A stretch of 64,000 nucleotides of DNA from Flavobacteriales bacterium (GTDB lineage Bacteria > Bacteroidota > Bacteroidia > Flavobacteriales > CAJXXR01), in assembly GCA_025210805.1 (NCBI GenBank), contig JAOAQX010000003.1, positions 124,001-188,000 of the forward strand, read 5' to 3'. The notes beneath the pieces are model-generated. The model did not search any database. It was not told where the DNA came from and saw nothing but the letters and a program-made list of their open reading frames with translations. This document shows positions 48,997 to 57,839 of the stretch, piece after piece. A program made the position numbers and the translations under genes. Within the stretch, counting starts at the first letter, position 1. Every line of letters starts with the position of its first letter.

Positions 48997-49272
48997 ATGG
49001 TAAATATATCCATTTCTACACCTCAAGATATCAAACTTAGAATAGCCGATATCTGTAAGAGTAAAAGAAAAAAAGAAAAGGTGAGCAGAGAAGAGCTGGC
49101 TCAATTTGTAGGAATGTCTAAAACTACTTTACAAAATATTGAATTGGGCAAAAATTATACTTTCGATAATCTTTTAAAAGTGGCTTATTATTTTGGATTA
49201 TTAGATCAAATTATGGAAACTTTGACTGCTTATCAAGAACAAGATGACTTGAATAATATGTCTCTCTATTAA
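48997..49272 (+). CDS. hipB: HipB-like antitoxin (XRE-family HTH)
   Basis: A 91-residue DNA-binding protein. The helix-turn-helix is VSREELAQFVGMSKTTLQNIELGKNYTFDNLLKVAYYFGL (about residues 28-67, described by its end motifs VSREELAQ and YYFGL). It is followed 9 nt later by a HipA-family kinase, the usual antitoxin-toxin order. It would bind its own promoter and neutralise HipA. Confidence 0.85.
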   Translation: MVNISISTPQDIKLRIADICKSKRKKEKVSREELAQFVGMSKTTLQNIELGKNYTFDNLLKVAYYFGLLDQIMETLTAYQEQDDLNNMSLY

Positions 49273-49281
49273 TACCCTACC

Positions 49282-50541
49282 ATGAAAAAGGAATTTCTTA
49301 TTGATATACGTTTATTTGAAACCGAAATTGCTCGTTTGGGAATAGATCCTGCCCAAAAAACGGTTCATTTCCAATACAACGAAAGCTTTTTAGAGCGTAA
49401 TTTATATAAGAGTATATTCCCATATATTTTCAGGAGAATCAAAAACATACAAAGCTTTAATCAATTCTTTGATAGTTCTTTTCAAGGGCTTCCTCCGATG
49501 ATTGCAGATTCTTTACCCGATGCCTTCGGAAATTCGATTTTTAAAACTTGGTTTGAACATCAAAAAAAACAAGGACAAACGCTTACAAATATAGAACTAC
49601 TCTCTTATGTAGGAAATAGAGGAATGGGTGCTTTGGAGTTTTTCCCGAATAAAACAAAATTACCGTTATCCGAATTTTCCTTACATGATCTAGCAAATAT
49701 TTCCGAACAAATTTTACAACAAAAAAGAGGGATTAAAGAATGGAGATTTAATGAGCAAGCTCTTTTGAATATTTTCAAATTAGGTACCTCAGCAGGTGGA
49801 GCAAGACCCAAAGTACTGATAGCCGAAAACCCATTAAACAAAAGTATCACCGCTGGAGATATTTTCGAAAACAAAAACCTAAATTACTATATTGTTAAGC
49901 TCCATTTGGAAATGGACGAATACAATAAATCGCAAATAGAGTTCACCTATCATCAACTGGTAAAAAAATGTGGAATTCAGATGATGGATTCGAAGCTCAT
50001 TGATGGTAAACACTTTGCTACTTTACGCTTTGATCGACTTCATGGTGAAAAACATCATTGTCTCACAGCATCTGGAATGAGTGGTTGGGATTTTAAATCA
50101 TCCACATACGCTAGTTATGAAAACTTATTTAAACTCTGCTTAGGTATAAAATTACCCTTACAAGATCTTGAAGAGCTTTATAGACGTATGGTGTTTAATG
50201 TGACTTTTGCTAATGAAGATGACCATTTGAAAAATCATAGTTTTATTTATCAAAAAGAGACGGATTCATGGAGATTATCCCCTGCTTACGATATCACTTA
50301 TTCCAAAAATCCATTAGTAAATTACAGAGAAACTCAGAGAGCTTTATCTATTAATAATAAAAGGAATCATATCAAATTTGAGGATCTACAAACAGTAGCG
50401 AAACAGTTTCAAATAAAGAAATACAAACAAATTATTGATGCTGTCCAAAGCCAAATACCGCAATGGAACATATTAGCAAAAAACAATGGAGTCCATCAAT
50501 ATTTAATTAAGTCCATAGAAAAGGATTTTGCGATATTCTAG
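49282..50541 (+). CDS. hipA: HipA-family serine/threonine kinase toxin
   Basis: A 419-residue HipA homologue of usual length. The N-terminal lobe has GLPPMIADSLPDAFGN (65-84 region). The Gly-rich/ATP section is LGTSAGGARPKVLIA (about 167-181), the catalytic loop NEDDHLKN (311-318, Asp314 and Asn318), and the metal-binding Asp337 lies in LSPAYDITY. All key kinase residues are intact, so it is probably active. E. coli HipA phosphorylates glutamyl-tRNA synthetase and causes growth arrest and persistence. The target here is unknown. Confidence 0.9.
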   Translation: MKKEFLIDIRLFETEIARLGIDPAQKTVHFQYNESFLERNLYKSIFPYIFRRIKNIQSFNQFFDSSFQGLPPMIADSLPDAFGNSIFKTWFEHQKKQGQTLTNIELLSYVGNRGMGALEFFPNKTKLPLSEFSLHDLANISEQILQQKRGIKEWRFNEQALLNIFKLGTSAGGARPKVLIAENPLNKSITAGDIFENKNLNYYIVKLHLEMDEYNKSQIEFTYHQLVKKCGIQMMDSKLIDGKHFATLRFDRLHGEKHHCLTASGMSGWDFKSSTYASYENLFKLCLGIKLPLQDLEELYRRMVFNVTFANEDDHLKNHSFIYQKETDSWRLSPAYDITYSKNPLVNYRETQRALSINNKRNHIKFEDLQTVAKQFQIKKYKQIIDAVQSQIPQWNILAKNNGVHQYLIKSIEKDFAIF

Positions 50542-52964: not shown

Positions 52965-53002
52965 AGCAGTGTTGGAAATTAATTTTCAGCACTGCTTTTT
53001 TT
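52965..53002 (+). terminator. Terminator of glutamine synthetase, overlapping the WYL gene 3' end
   Basis: Stem AGCAGTGTTG (52965-52974) / CAGCACTGCT (52987-52996) with one G-U pair, then seven T. The right arm and T-run encode the last residues (KKSSAEN) of the converging WYL gene, whose stop is at 52979. Confidence 0.85.
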
Positions 53003-54004
53003 GTGGTAATTATTTAGTGCTTGCTTTAATTTCCGTTTAATTCTCCTTCTTAGCCCATTAGGCTTTAGGACTTCAATAGAATCTCCAAATCCTAAAATCA
53101 ATCTTTCAAGTTCGTAGTTTTGATGAACTTCTATTTTTATTTCTATGGATTGATCTGCATAGGTTTTTATTAATTCTTGCGATGAATGAAAAGGCTTTGT
53201 GAGTACATAAGGAGCATTTGATCGATCTATTTTTAAAAAAATCGACTCTTTTTGCTTTGGTTTCATCACAGTAACTCCAATGGTGTTTTTGTAGTATTCA
53301 TCAGGATTAATCGTGGTTTTTTTATAGAAATAATCCCATAAAAAATCAATGGAAATAATTCTATCTAAGGCCAGTGTCATAAGAGTTTCTTTACTGGAAC
53401 CCACTAAGAACCAACGATTATTAAATTCCTTTAACCAATAAGGATGAATTGTGAATAAAGACGATTTTCTGGCAGAAAAAGACTGGTAACAAATACTCAA
53501 AACTGTTTTTTTTATAATGCTTTGATAAAGAATATCTAGGTATTTCAAACCTTTTAATCTTTCGTTTTTATCAAGGTGAATTACCGGACCTCTTTGGTTT
53601 TGCTCGGCATAAATCTTGTCTTCAAGTCTATGGATAATACCTCCTAGCTCAGAAAAAAGTGAAAAATCTTTAAATTGTTTTAGCATTTCAACAGTTTCAG
53701 AGAGAATATACATATCGTTTTCCGTTATAGGAATATCCGTTATGGTGTAGTTAGGATCTTCATATTTATAATATTTTTTATCATACACTACAATCGGTGC
53801 ATTATAGCCCAATTTATCACTTCGCATATTTTGGATATCCAATTGAATCGTTCTCTTACTCACATTGACATCACGACTCTCATACTCATAAAGAGCATCT
53901 GAACAGGCTGTGATTAAATCCTTCAAAGTCCATTTTTTATACCTGTTTTGAAGACATTTATCAATGGTTTTATATCGTATTAATGCATTTTTATTTTGAG
54001 CCAT
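52979..54004 (-). CDS. WYL-domain transcriptional regulator divergent from the RNA-repair cassette
   Basis: A 341-residue regulator. Residues 1-75 are a winged helix-turn-helix (DKCLQNRYKKWTLKDLI, VSKRTIQLDIQNM). Residues 165-225 are the WYL domain (HPYWLKEFNNRWFLVGSS at about 187-204, ALDRI at 212-216). A C-terminal WCX-like segment ends FGDSIEVLKPNGLRRRIKR. This is the domain order of BrxR/CapW-type repressors that control phage-defence operons by sensing a nucleic-acid-like ligand in the WYL pocket. It is transcribed away from the tRNA-like array and SPFH-ligase-PNKP genes, which it probably regulates (inference from position). Confidence 0.9.
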   Translation of the reverse strand: MAQNKNALIRYKTIDKCLQNRYKKWTLKDLITACSDALYEYESRDVNVSKRTIQLDIQNMRSDKLGYNAPIVVYDKKYYKYEDPNYTITDIPITENDMYILSETVEMLKQFKDFSLFSELGGIIHRLEDKIYAEQNQRGPVIHLDKNERLKGLKYLDILYQSIIKKTVLSICYQSFSARKSSLFTIHPYWLKEFNNRWFLVGSSKETLMTLALDRIISIDFLWDYFYKKTTINPDEYYKNTIGVTVMKPKQKESIFLKIDRSNAPYVLTKPFHSSQELIKTYADQSIEIKIEVHQNYELERLILGFGDSIEVLKPNGLRRRIKRKLKQALNNYHKKSSAEN

Positions 54005-54230
54005 TAGTGATGTTTTTTGATAAAATTAGAAATAAAAAACTACTACGCAAAATAAATACGCACTTACTATTCATCTTTGCTTTGTCATTTAGAAATAAAT
54101 GCTCAAAACGATCTTTAAATTTATTTACAATATTGAGAGAGCCTTGTTTTGTGTTTCTGTATAGCACTATTGTTCAATAATCTGCCCTTTAGGTATCGAT
54201 TTATAGTATTCAGCTCGGCTCAAAGGTTTG
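54005..54230. promoter_or_regulatory. Divergent control region between the WYL gene and the tRNA-like array
   Basis: 226 AT-rich nt with no plausible gene. It should hold promoters for the leftward WYL gene and the rightward RNA/repair cassette. A near -7 box CATCTTTG lies at 54071-54078 (first base deviates). The 11-mer TTAGAAATAAA occurs at 54026-54036 and 54089-54099, exactly 63 nt (six helical turns) apart, and could be paired regulator sites. The evidence is weak, because such AT-rich words arise by chance. Confidence 0.35.
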
Positions 54231-54248: not shown

Positions 54249-54318
54249 TATCACGCTATGGCCGCAGGTTCGAATCCTGCCGAGAGTTTCTCGTAGTTCA
54301 GAGGTTAGAACAATAGCC
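54249..54318 (+). ncRNA. Permuted tRNA-like module A (opened in the anticodon loop, Asp-like)
   Basis: Order along the DNA: loop bases TATCAC, anticodon-stem 3' strand GCTAT (54255-54259), 4-nt variable loop, T-arm GCAGG-TTCGAAT-CCTGC (54264-54280), acceptor 3' strand CGAGA, cap GTT, acceptor 5' strand TCTCG (54289-54293), linker TA (positions 8-9), D-arm GTTC-AGAGGTTA-GAAC (54296-54311), A26, anticodon-stem 5' strand ATAGC (54313-54317), C32. All stems pair perfectly (5+5+4+5 bp). Rejoining the halves gives the loop CTATCAC, which differs from the usual tRNA-Asp loop only by A for G at position 34. The natural 5' and 3' ends are fused by a triloop and there is no CCA. Confidence 0.8.
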
Positions 54319-54398
54319 ACCCTATGTAGGTTCGAATCCTACTACTCTTCACTTGAGTATGGCGGAACTGGAAGACGCGCTAGATTTAAGTTCTAGTA
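54319..54398 (+). ncRNA. Permuted tRNA-like module B (opened in the variable arm, Leu-UAA type)
   Basis: Order: variable-arm 3' strand ACCCTA, T-arm GTAGG-TTCGAAT-CCTAC (54326-54342), acceptor 3' strand TACTC, 7-nt cap TTCACTT, acceptor 5' strand GAGTA (54355-54359), TG linker, class II D-arm GCG ... CGC with GG in its loop (54362-54378), and a complete anticodon arm CTAGA-TTTAAGT-TCTAG (54380-54396) with anticodon TAA. The 3-bp D-stem, TG linker and long variable arm are leucine-tRNA features. The variable arm can close as TAG-GGT / ACC-CTA with one bulged A if it borrows 54399-54403 from module C. The acceptor has only 5 bp and no CCA. Confidence 0.8.
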
Positions 54399-54473
54399 GA
54401 GGTAGAGCAATCGACTGATAATCGATGTGTTGTGGGTTCGATTCCCACTTTGACTGAAGAGTCAAATAGCTCA
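54399..54473 (+). ncRNA. Permuted tRNA-like module C (opened in the D-loop, Ile-GAU type)
   Basis: Order: D-loop remainder GAGGTA, D-stem 3' strand GAGC (54405-54408), A26, anticodon arm ATCGA-CTGATAA-TCGAT (54410-54426) with anticodon GAT, 5-nt variable loop, T-arm GTGGG-TTCGATT-CCCAC (54432-54448), acceptor 3' strand TTTGACT, tetraloop GAAG, acceptor 5' strand AGTCAAA (54460-54466), TA linker, D-stem 5' strand GCTC (54469-54472), A14. All 26 pairs (7+4+5+5+5 counting the joined D-loop as canonical AGAGGTA) are Watson-Crick except none required wobble. The full 7-bp acceptor makes this the clearest case. Confidence 0.85.
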
Positions 54474-54477
54474 ATTT

Positions 54478-54496
54478 TTCAGACTAAAAATCTGAA
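54478..54496 (+). ncRNA. Isolated anticodon stem-loop-like hairpin (Phe-like) ending the array
   Basis: Six-bp stem TTCAGA / TCTGAA with 7-nt loop CTAAAAA. It resembles a tRNA-Phe anticodon arm (usual loop CTGAAAA) with A for G at position 34. No T-arm, D-arm or acceptor follows, so only this arm is present. Confidence 0.55.
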
Positions 54497-54782: not shown

Positions 54783-55886
54783 ATGGAACTAAGAGTAAAA
54801 ATAAATGCCTACGAAGTAGGAATCGTAATGAAAGATGGGAATATTATTGATATTCTTACAGAAGGTAAATACTTCAAGAAACTTGGTACCGAGGTGTATA
54901 TTTATAATACAACACAGCTCTTTACAAGTAGAATTGAGTGGTCAATTTTGGAAAAAAATGAAAAACTCATGAAAATGTTGGAAATTGTGGATACCACTGA
55001 GAGTGAATTGGCAATAGTATATAAAGACAACAGGTTTTATACTGTTGTAAATAACTCTAGACTTGCGTACTGGAAAGGAGTTTTGAATATGAAATATAAA
55101 AAATATGACATTGAAGAACTTTCTGTTCCTAAAGAAATCAATAAAGCGATACTGAAATACCCACTAATGACTCAGTATTATAGACTTCTAGAAGTATCTT
55201 CACAAGAACAAGCAATCCTGTATGTGAATGGTGAAAAACGCAGTATTATCAAGGGGGGACAATACTATTTCTGGAACAACACAAAGAAATTGAGACTAGA
55301 AAAAGTGGATATGAGAAATCAGGACATGGAAATTATCGGTCAGGAAATTCTCACCAAAGATAAAGCAGCAATTAGGATAAATTTTCAAGCCAATTATAAA
55401 ATAATTGATGTAGAAAAAGCCCTGATGGAAAACAAAGATTTCAGCAAACAACTGTATTCTTCGCTTCAAATGGCGATAAGATCTTATATCGGTACACTAA
55501 CGCTGGATGAATTGATGGAAAACAAAGAGCAAATTTCTGGTTTTATTATAGAAAAAATCAAAAGTAAAATCACAAAACTGGGTGTCGCAGTAAACTCTGC
55601 AGGAATTAAAGATATTATTCTTCCTGGTGAGATAAAGGAAATTATGAACAAAGTATTGGTAGCACAAAAGAGTGCTCAAGCAAATACGATCACCAGAAGA
55701 GAGGAAACGGCTTCAACAAGAAGTTTGTTGAATACTGCAAAATTGATGGATGACAATGAAATGCTCTTCAGATTGAAAGAGATGGAATATGTAGAAAAAA
55801 TTGCAGAAAAAATCGGAGAAATTTCCTTGAATGGAAATGGAGGTATGGTGAAGCAATTGAAAGAAATCTTTGGAGCTAAATCTTGA
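54783..55886 (+). CDS. SPFH/slipin-family protein of an RNA-repair cassette
   Basis: A 367-residue protein. Residues 1-160 are a mixed alpha/beta region starting MELRVKINAYEVGIVMKDGN. Residues 165-290 match the band-7/SPFH fold (EQAILYVNGEKRSIIKGGQYYFW, EILTKDKAAIRINFQANYKI, IKSKITKLGVAVNSAGIKDI). A helical coiled coil rich in Glu and Ala follows (VLVAQKSAQANTITRREE). No N-terminal membrane helix is visible. Slipins are known companions of bacterial RNA-repair operons (for example with RtcB), as I recall. A scaffold role is inferred. It is the first coding gene after the tRNA-like array. Confidence 0.85.
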   Translation: MELRVKINAYEVGIVMKDGNIIDILTEGKYFKKLGTEVYIYNTTQLFTSRIEWSILEKNEKLMKMLEIVDTTESELAIVYKDNRFYTVVNNSRLAYWKGVLNMKYKKYDIEELSVPKEINKAILKYPLMTQYYRLLEVSSQEQAILYVNGEKRSIIKGGQYYFWNNTKKLRLEKVDMRNQDMEIIGQEILTKDKAAIRINFQANYKIIDVEKALMENKDFSKQLYSSLQMAIRSYIGTLTLDELMENKEQISGFIIEKIKSKITKLGVAVNSAGIKDIILPGEIKEIMNKVLVAQKSAQANTITRREETASTRSLLNTAKLMDDNEMLFRLKEMEYVEKIAEKIGEISLNGNGGMVKQLKEIFGAKS

Positions 55887-55938: not shown

Positions 55939-56961
55939 ATGAAATCTACAATAAACATTCAGAAAATTAGAGAATACATATCAAAAGGCTGGATTACAGA
56001 AAAAAAACACCCTATTCATGATATTTTTATTTACAATTACAGCCAAAAAACACAATTTGAATATTTTTGGGACACAACCACAATACAGTGTAGAGGATTG
56101 ATTTTAAACAAAGAGGGCTTTATACATGCAAGACCTTTTCAGAAATTCTTTAACCTATCTGAGCATCAAGGTGAAATCCCAAATGAAGCCTTTGAAGTTT
56201 TTGAAAAAATGGATGGTTCATTGGGGATATTATATTGGCTAGAAAATGAACCTTATATTGCAACAAGAGGCTCTTTTGAGTCTTGTCAAGCAAAGTTTGC
56301 AAATCAACTTTTAAGAACAAAATATCGACATATCTGGCAAAATTTGAATCCTAAATACACATACCTATTTGAGATTATCTATCCAGAAAATAGAATTGTG
56401 GTAGATTATGGAGCAGATGAAAAACTGGTTTTACTAGCCATTATTGACACACAAACAGGACAAGATATACCATTAAAAAACATCGGATTTCCTTTGGTAA
56501 AGAAATACTCAAACATCAAAAACATTACAGGTTTATCTAAGGAAAACAAAAAGAATGCTGAAGGCTATGTATTGCGATTTGAAAGTGGATTGAGATTAAA
56601 AATCAAATTTGACGAATATATTCACTTACATAAAATATACAATAACATTTCCTCTTTAGTCATTTGGAATCAGATGAAAAACGAAAGTTTAAACGAAAAA
56701 TTTTTAGCGGAAATTCCCGATGAAATTTATCCATGGATAAAAGAAATACAACATAAACTTGAGAAACAATATTCTGAAATAGAAAATCTTGCAAAACAAG
56801 AATACAAAGAATATCATACAAGAAAAGAAACTGCTGAATATTTCAAAACTTGTAAGCATCCAAGTATTTTGTTTTCCATGTTGAATGGAAAAAGTTATTC
56901 GGAATATATATGGAAATTAATTAGACCAAATTTTGAAAAACCCAAAATAACAAGAAAATGA
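55939..56961 (+). CDS. T4 Rnl1-like RNA ligase
   Basis: A 340-residue ATP-dependent RNA ligase. CRGLILNKEGFIHARPFQKFFN (about 51-72) precedes the adenylated Lys90 in FEKMDGSLGILYW (motif I KxDG). GSFES (motif III-like region), YLFEIIYPENRIVVDY, and EGYVLRFESGLRLKIKFDEY (motifs IV-V) complete the nucleotidyltransferase. A C-terminal helical domain follows. It seals 5'-phosphate to 3'-OH ends, the second half of T4-style tRNA repair. Start ATG 55939 (MKSTINIQKI) is chosen; the frame is open into the SPFH gene but that extension is not family-like. Its stop overlaps the PNKP start (ATGA). Confidence 0.93.
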   Translation: MKSTINIQKIREYISKGWITEKKHPIHDIFIYNYSQKTQFEYFWDTTTIQCRGLILNKEGFIHARPFQKFFNLSEHQGEIPNEAFEVFEKMDGSLGILYWLENEPYIATRGSFESCQAKFANQLLRTKYRHIWQNLNPKYTYLFEIIYPENRIVVDYGADEKLVLLAIIDTQTGQDIPLKNIGFPLVKKYSNIKNITGLSKENKKNAEGYVLRFESGLRLKIKFDEYIHLHKIYNNISSLVIWNQMKNESLNEKFLAEIPDEIYPWIKEIQHKLEKQYSEIENLAKQEYKEYHTRKETAEYFKTCKHPSILFSMLNGKSYSEYIWKLIRPNFEKPKITRK

Positions 56962-57839
56962 AAAAGATCATTTTACTTAAAGGTTTACCCGCAAGTGGAA
57001 AATCAACTTATGCAAAAGCCTTGGTAAAAAACAACCCAGGAATGTATAAAAGAATCAATAGAGATGAACTAAGAGACATGCTAGATTCTGGAAAATTTTC
57101 TAAGGGAAATGAGCAATTTGTTAAAAAAACCAGAGACTTTTTAATCAAAATGGCACTACAAGACGGAAAACACGTGATTGTAGATGATACCAATTTGCAT
57201 AGCTCAAATGAAGAGAAAATGAGAGCAATTGCAAAAGAATTTAAAGAAGAAACTGGACACCAAGTTCGGGTAGAAATAAAAACATTTGACACTTCTGTAG
57301 AAGTTTGTATAAAACGAGATCTATTGCGTGAAAATCCCGTTGGACAAGCAGTTATTAGAAAAATGGAACGACAAATGAATTCTAAGGAAAAAAAGTATCC
57401 TAAATACAGCGTTCAAAACCCTGAACTGCCCAAGGCAATTATATGCGATTTAGATGGAACTCTAGCCTTAATGCACGATAGAGGTCCATTTGAGGGGAAT
57501 AAATGCTTATCAGATTTACCAAACACTCCAATAGTGAATTTGGTGAAAAATTATCATAAAATGGGCTTCAAAATACTCTTGCTTTCGGGGAGAGATGGAC
57601 AATTTGAAAATGAAACCAAAAAATGGCTGGAGCAATATAAAATCCCTTATGATCAACTATGGATGCGTGCTAAAAAAGACATGAGAAAAGATGCCATTAT
57701 CAAAAAAGAATTATTCAAACAAAACATTCAGGATCAATATTTTGTGGAATTTATTCTCGATGACAGAAATCAAGTAGTGGATTTATGGAGAAATGAATTA
57801 AATTTACCTTGTCTTCAAGTGTATTATGGGGATTTTTAA
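56958..57839 (+). CDS. pnkp: T4 Pnkp-like polynucleotide kinase-phosphatase
   Basis: A 293-residue end-healing enzyme with the same domain order and length as phage T4 Pnkp. Residues 1-150 are the 5'-kinase: P-loop GLPASGKST (9-17), INRDEL, DDTNLH (76-81) and RDLLRENPVGQAVI. Residues 158-293 are the HAD-type 3'-phosphatase: DLDGTLA (nucleophile Asp164, acid Asp166), LLSGRDGQ, Lys in RKDAIIK, and LDDRNQVVDLWR. It removes 2',3'-cyclic phosphate or 3'-phosphate and phosphorylates 5'-OH, preparing ends for the adjoining ligase. It is translationally coupled to the ligase by a 4-nt overlap. Confidence 0.95.
   Translation: MKKIILLKGLPASGKSTYAKALVKNNPGMYKRINRDELRDMLDSGKFSKGNEQFVKKTRDFLIKMALQDGKHVIVDDTNLHSSNEEKMRAIAKEFKEETGHQVRVEIKTFDTSVEVCIKRDLLRENPVGQAVIRKMERQMNSKEKKYPKYSVQNPELPKAIICDLDGTLALMHDRGPFEGNKCLSDLPNTPIVNLVKNYHKMGFKILLLSGRDGQFENETKKWLEQYKIPYDQLWMRAKKDMRKDAIIKKELFKQNIQDQYFVEFILDDRNQVVDLWRNELNLPCLQVYYGDF

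Follow-up and report, generated by a model that had tools for sequence, protein, structure and literature searches.

Permuted tRNA-like modules chained upstream of a slipin and RNA ligase operon in a Flavobacteriales bacterium

Introduction

The rtc RNA-repair operon consists of RtcR, RtcB, and RtcA, which are accompanied in Salmonella by Rsr and YrlA. In 2016, Burroughs and Aravind reportedly described RNA-repair systems in which a Band-7/SPFH module comes with a cognate novel tRNA-like molecule. In algae and archaea, circularly permuted tRNA genes mature into translating tRNAs. Y RNA is itself circularly permuted relative to tRNA (PMC11472068), mimics its D, T, and acceptor arms (PMC8394870), and, in the case of YrlA, binds an effector via this tRNA-like domain (PMC8394870).

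Here, we analyzed a 64,000-nt stretch of DNA from a Flavobacteriales bacterium (contig JAOAQX010000003.1, positions 124,001 to 188,000), hereafter the window, in which a tRNA-like array at 54255-54496 lies in the probable leader of a WYL-regulated operon encoding a slipin, a T4 Rnl1-type RNA ligase, and a polynucleotide kinase-phosphatase (Pnkp). The Band-7 system of Burroughs and Aravind is reportedly of the same operon type, and its tRNA-like RNA probably belongs to the same family as the array. Like YrlA-type bacterial Y RNA (RF02553; PDB 6CU1), the array has the permuted order of T-arm, closed acceptor hairpin, and D-arm. Unlike YrlA, it chains several modules, bears anticodon arms on modules B and C, has slipin as its partner gene, and shows no match to the Ro-binding stem, nor is there any match to a Ro/TROVE gene in the host genome. 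With the rtc operon, it shares the design of a regulated repair operon combining a ligase with a tRNA-like RNA, and RtcR adjoins the enterobacterial slipin-RlaP version, but the window has a WYL regulator, an Rnl1-type ligase, Pnkp, and slipin. As in algal and archaeal permuted tRNA genes, the order of the halves is reversed, but the array differs in its sealed acceptor and missing CCA, and it shows no processing signal. The array is real, conserved, and unusual. It extends a known kind of RNA, the Y-RNA-like permuted tRNA mimics, to chains in which two modules have anticodon arms and which show anticodon loops beside a tRNA-repair operon.

Table 1. Features of the array and its operon, with positions in the window
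Feature	Position	Strand	Description
WYL/WCX transcriptional regulator	52979-54004	-	Pfam PF13280, PF25583; divergent from array and operon
Putative regulator site (ACGCA...TACGCA) and promoter -7 box (TTTG)	54045-54079	+	Predicted; diverged copy
Conserved 5' domain of leader RNA, GTGTTTCTGTATAGCAC core	54134-54222	+	Alignment and consensus fold of related leaders
Module A	54255-54317	+	Class I, Y-RNA-like core; permuted, opened in anticodon loop (GCTAT/ATAGC); fold
Module B	54319-54402	+	Class II permuted tRNA form, variable arm opened
Module B variable-arm helix	54321-54323/54400-54402	+	Weak, 3 bp, CCT/AGG
Module B T-arm	54326-54342	+	GTAGG-TTCGAAT-CCTAC
Module B acceptor	54343-54347/54355-54359	+	TACTC/GAGTA, 5 bp
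Module B cap	54348-54354	+	TTCACTT, 7 nt, closes acceptor
Module B linker	54360-54361	+	TG
Module B D-stem	54362-54364/54376-54378	+	3 bp, GCG GAACTGGAAGA CGC; long class II D-loop with GG
Module B anticodon stem	54380-54384/54392-54396	+	CTAGA/TCTAG
Module B anticodon arm	54380-54396	+	Loop TTTAAGT; anticodon TAA (UAA) at 54387-54389
Module C	54398-54472	+	Permuted, opened in D-loop (GAGC 54405-54408/GCTC 54469-54472); fold and helix probabilities
Module C Ile-GAT anticodon arm	54410-54426	+	
Module C T-arm	54432-54448	+	
Module C acceptor	54449-54455/54460-54466	+	GAAG cap
Isolated anticodon-type stem-loop	54478-54496	+	TTCAGA CTAAAAA TCTGAA; fold
Slipin (SPFH/Band 7)	54783-55886	+	Pfam PF01145; family alignment; AlphaFold2 mean pLDDT 82, with alignment rows from window and genome loci only
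T4 Rnl1-type RNA ligase	55939-56961	+	Pfam PF09511, E 1e-16
Pnkp	56958-57839	+	Pfam PF25109, E 3e-51; PF13671

Results

The preliminary description had read module B as a class II tRNA in permuted order, with a short capped acceptor, a TG linker, a 3-bp D-stem, and an intact anticodon arm, and the coordinates confirm this anatomy (Table 1). The permuted fold is real at 54326-54396, passing from T-arm to acceptor, linker, D-stem, and anticodon arm, with G26 between the D-arm and the anticodon arm. Taken in this order, the acceptor strands form a closed hairpin, and both ends of the chain lie in the variable region. B is, as had been proposed, the sole class II module within the array. When the segment 54319-54402 is folded alone, it adopts the permuted fold at -20.8 kcal/mol. 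The global minimum free energy (MFE) structure of the whole array (-72.9 vs. -65.9 for the all-permuted structure) misfolds B, and the case for its fold therefore rests on comparative evidence and not on energy alone. The class II permuted form is borne out by the isolated fold together with covariation among homologous modules.

For this comparison, 68 permuted modules with 63 different acceptors were parsed in 37 loci (window included), upstream of slipins of the same subfamily. Typing gave 30 modules open in the anticodon arm, 25 open in the variable region, and 13 without an assigned type, some calls being uncertain, since a few second modules called anticodon-open (e.g., L204) look variable-open by eye. 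The opening in the variable region is thus conserved, with 25 homologous modules parsed in this form, although for B-type modules it holds by definition of the type. Most, but not all, parsed arrays have a B-type module, usually after an anticodon-open one.

We then considered the 71 canonical T-arms found in the 650 nt before homologous slipin genes. In 46 of them, five or more Watson-Crick pairs form a hairpin directly 3' of the T-arm, compared to 1.7% of shuffles and 0/31 ordinary host tRNAs. By contrast, linear acceptor pairing is seen for 35/71 array T-arms vs. 44% when shuffled, and for 30/31 ordinary host tRNAs. An ordinary tRNA-Leu would have a 7-bp linear acceptor with a strand 5' of the D-arm, and array T-arms show the reverse of the host pattern. 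No ordinary linear tRNA-Leu lies at this place; the preliminary description had named such a tRNA in homologues as fatal to its claim. The linear reading was rejected because its acceptor strands pair no more than in shuffles. In a sequence-based (MAFFT) alignment of 23 B-type modules, with structure supplied by hand, covariation is 0.813, compared to 0.219 in shuffles and no more than 0.147 when partners are slid, and two-sided changes occur in 18/20 pairs, including all six pairs of the permuted acceptor. As many as 95.2% of cells pair, a percentage that is inflated since the parser demanded an acceptor hairpin and an anticodon stem; the T-arm acceptor test is free of that bias. U8, A14, and the T-loop residues are invariant in B-type modules, and one D-loop G is nearly so.

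A covariance model built from the B-type modules finds B, itself in the training set, as the best match in the host genome (70.7 bits), followed by a 53.1-bit match spanning neighboring ordinary tRNA genes. Over 295 genomes, array loci are the top matches, but the model alone cannot count arrays because tandem ordinary tRNAs reach ~62 to 65 bits. It nevertheless found a new array in a genome outside the training set (L373, 4570-4702, minus strand). This array adjoins a WYL gene and an RtcB-type ligase, in a stretch without slipin.

Standard searches, which assume linear tRNAs, give only chimeras here. The ARAGORN call is a tRNA-Ser(AGA) at 54360-54457, and the Rfam match is a 32-bit tRNA at 54390-54456; both stitch parts of B to C and were rejected. 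ARAGORN reports no tmRNA in the window. That these tools yield nothing but a spurious tRNA-Ser and a weak chimeric match, and that tRNA clusters flank many homologous loci, would be expected of a decayed tRNA gene cluster without function. We find such decay scarcely credible since it is contradicted by the strong compensatory change in the permuted acceptor, and both the 63 different acceptors in 68 modules and the conserved position beside the same operon type argue against it.

In class II modules, the opening tends to be bridged by a helix, which has at least 4 bp in 8/11 cases vs. 26% with swapped partners (CGAT/ATCG, AAACT/AGTTT, GATCA/TGATT, AACAT/GTGTT, and ATTTC/GAAAT, for example). 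The corresponding values are 2/14 vs. 17% in class I modules. Across modules, acceptors have 4 to 9 bp and caps 3 to 10 nt; 21 caps are four nucleotides long, among them eight GNRA and two UNCG tetraloops, and (N)CCA starts only 2/55 caps. Each unit retains the elbow of a tRNA, but since its acceptor is sealed into a hairpin, it is unlikely to be a normal charged tRNA. Aminoacylation of B, which had not been expected from the outset, is accordingly held unlikely, as judged from the sealed acceptor and a cap without CCA. The array might instead be a permuted pre-tRNA, processed and ligated by the operon's own ligase into functional tRNAs as in algae; the ligase and kinase-phosphatase adjoining the array, and a class II body resembling tRNA-Leu, would suit such a role. 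We consider it very unlikely because of the sealed acceptors and the rarity of (N)CCA, because module A has no anticodon, because bodies and anticodons are mismatched in homologues, and because two tRNA-Leu(UAA) genes already exist elsewhere in the host genome.

For the anticodon, the original Leu-UAA reading is not borne out. UAA is not kept in homologues, the closest of which (in L093) has UCU in the same Leu-like body. Other homologous anticodons include GAA, CAA, UGG, AGG, UAG, AAA, and UUU. By count, GUU occurs six times, GAA and CAA three times each, and UUU and UCG twice, with the others found once. Leu-like bodies are seen with the mismatched anticodons UCU, GAA, and UGG. When loops were recounted with neither residue as a requirement, U33 and a purine at position 37 were each present in 23/24 loops, around positions 34 to 36 that vary. 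The anticodons have no clear match to one known nuclease. B itself shares its anticodon stem with host Leu(UAG) tRNA, and three positions of its loop TTTAAGT (32, 37, and 38) depart from the CTTAAAA loop of host Leu(UAA) tRNA. On these sequence grounds, the label Leu-UAA describes the ancestry and shape of B, not a retained identity.

The preliminary description had suggested that B is opened where this would disturb the fold least. The position of the opening differs along the array, being in the anticodon arm in A, in the variable arm in B, and in the D-loop in C. Among anticodon-open modules, of which A is one, the module's own anticodon strands pair 5/5 in 24/30 cases vs. 15.5% with swapped partners. 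No second D-loop opening like that of C was recognized in homologous arrays, using a parser not designed for such modules. C-U-NNN-A-A hairpins similar to that at 54478-54496 often end other arrays.

Module A (54259-54312) matches positions 26-82 of the Rfam YrlA family (RF02553) with 31.5 bits (E 9e-5 in 801 bases), module C matches the YrlA core weakly (24.4 bits, E 0.0097), and B is not among the matches. The score of A is below the curated cut-off of 69 bits, and the alignment covers the core but not the basal stem. This cut-off is strict since two TROVE-linked loci also fall below it, at 48.1 and 28.4 bits. Scanning viral sequences for the permuted T/D pattern returned tandem tRNAs for the most part, together with Y RNAs next to TROVE genes; in viral contigs, single permuted T/acceptor/D modules, which are Y RNAs, adjoin TROVE (Ro) in 4/6 loci checked. 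Because of the YrlA core matches and the published permutation and tRNA mimicry of Y RNA, the array looks like a Y-RNA-type core that was multiplied, with anticodon arms added in B and C.

Upstream of the array is a putative regulator site with a promoter box (Table 1), a diverged copy of a motif, RCGCA-N7-TGCGY with TTTG 3' of it, that precedes 24/42 loci vs. 4% in shuffles. The array is therefore probably the leader of the operon transcript. It could act mainly in cis, as a riboregulator of the operon mRNA whose folding or cutting switches slipin and ligase expression, and its location after the putative promoter and before slipin, with flanks conserved on both the 5' and the 3' side, is consistent with this. 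We regard such a role as improbable, given that no terminator or start-site sequestration has been demonstrated and that the array in L373 has RtcB, not slipin, downstream.

Many Bacteroidota have homologous arrays ahead of their slipin genes, often beside a WYL relative, and reduced forms occur elsewhere. Twelve other genomes of this order, along with additional families of the class, have slipin relatives with 43 to 54% identity, and there is one also in a Flavobacteriales metagenome-assembled genome, in a genome-contig scan that used a single protein query and gave only two loci. Distant relatives are found in plasmid-collection records of Subdoligranulum, enterobacteria, Burkholderia, and Photobacterium. 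Among viral sequences, slipin searches gave no relevant match apart from one enterobacterial-type contig, and viral relatives of the ligase exist without slipin. The orthologous slipin of enterobacteria sits between RtcR and RlaP. In the E. coli locus of the slipin-RlaP type (L136, 6599-6633), the leader has one T-arm with a sealed acceptor, and there is a sigma-54-like site. Most of the locus of this simplified form is present in 1617/5426 complete E. coli genomes (~30%), which brings some of the question within reach of laboratory strains. Ordinary tRNA genes are frequent near arrays, with 122 in 35 loci (353 per Mb) compared to 44 tRNA matches in the 3.12 Mb of the host genome.

Discussion

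What might such a chain do? Our best guess, drawn from sequence, is that the array would serve as a bait or sensor for anticodon nucleases and would also dock the repair machinery. For B in particular, we put the chances at about even that it is a unit of a permuted tRNA-mimic chain in a repair-operon leader that acts as bait or cut sensor. The chain would be co-transcribed with the operon upon tRNA damage. Anticodon-intact units such as B would present loops attacked by anticodon nucleases, and anticodon-open units such as A would look like a tRNA that is already broken, or like the core of a Y RNA, and would dock the machinery of slipin, ligase, and Pnkp. Since the chain of B is opened in the variable arm, only the short anticodon stem would hold the pieces together after a cut in its anticodon loop. 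Such a cut would therefore part the array from the RNA downstream of it, which cutting an ordinary tRNA does not do. Ignoring tertiary contacts and modified bases, the predicted binding of the pieces after an anticodon cut is -4.2 kcal/mol for B and -6.0 (median) for 25 permuted modules vs. a median of -12.9 for 34 host tRNAs, with -10.0 and -14.3 for host Leu(UAA) tRNAs. Such a weak predicted hold fits a bait or cut sensor.

In phage T4, enzymes of the kind encoded downstream of the array mend anticodon cuts. Fragments of tRNA activate RtcR (PMC7790460), and in Anabaena a slipin, RtcB, and a tRNA operon share regulation under translation stress (PMC10272220). Taken together, the repair enzymes, the RtcR link, the enrichment in tRNA genes, and the Anabaena co-regulation suggest that the arrays take part in a tRNA-damage response.

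Several points count against the bait reading. By the parser, some arrays have no anticodon-intact B-type unit; the anticodons do not clearly match any one known nuclease; and the MFE structure misfolds B. Moreover, Salmonella YrlA, which has no anticodon loop, is not cut by a RecA-dependent anticodon nuclease (PMC7790460). The main rival is a scaffold, in which Y-RNA-like mimics recruit tRNA-binding enzymes (ligase, Pnkp, PNPase-like nucleases, or modification enzymes) to slipin, and the anticodon arms are not meant for cutting. The YrlA core matches of A and C, the single permuted modules that adjoin Ro/TROVE genes elsewhere, and effector binding by the tRNA-like domain of YrlA (PMC8394870) all favor a scaffold, which we take seriously while leaning against it, because it leaves unexplained both the retention of U33 and purine 37 amid varying anticodons and the isolated anticodon stem-loop that frequently ends arrays. 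As for the bait in its fullest form, in which the chain would offer several anticodon loops and the permutation would turn a cut into a separation that is reported to, or repaired by, a slipin/ligase/Pnkp complex, we advance it tentatively and think it rather unlikely as a whole. If cut sensing is true, the variable anticodons would mirror the nucleases faced by each lineage, and a bait or sensor would open a direct way into the question of how tRNA cleavage is detected by bacteria, and into the role of slipin in RNA repair.

Additional observations

The loci hold further features. Ahead of its SPFH domain, the N terminus of the slipin seems to carry a short beta unit in repeated form. Next to slipin arrays are clusters with as many as 19 ordinary tRNA genes (L114, L115, L120, L205, and others). 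Upstream of the array in L093 (6096-6299) lies a linear tRNA-like RNA whose anticodon region holds a very long insert, and a WYL/ligase/Pnkp locus (L084, 5680-6000) has another linear tRNA-like RNA, which contains a large insert, as well as repeated GGTCAA...CTTACTTC motifs ahead of a 747-residue protein without a clear Pfam family. Elsewhere in the host genome (L146, 1644-1720), odd tRNA-Asn(ATT) copies with an unusual T-arm adjoin a normal tRNA-Asn. Finally, a small helix-turn-helix ORF followed by a HipA-like protein in the window (48997-50541) is likely a toxin-antitoxin pair.
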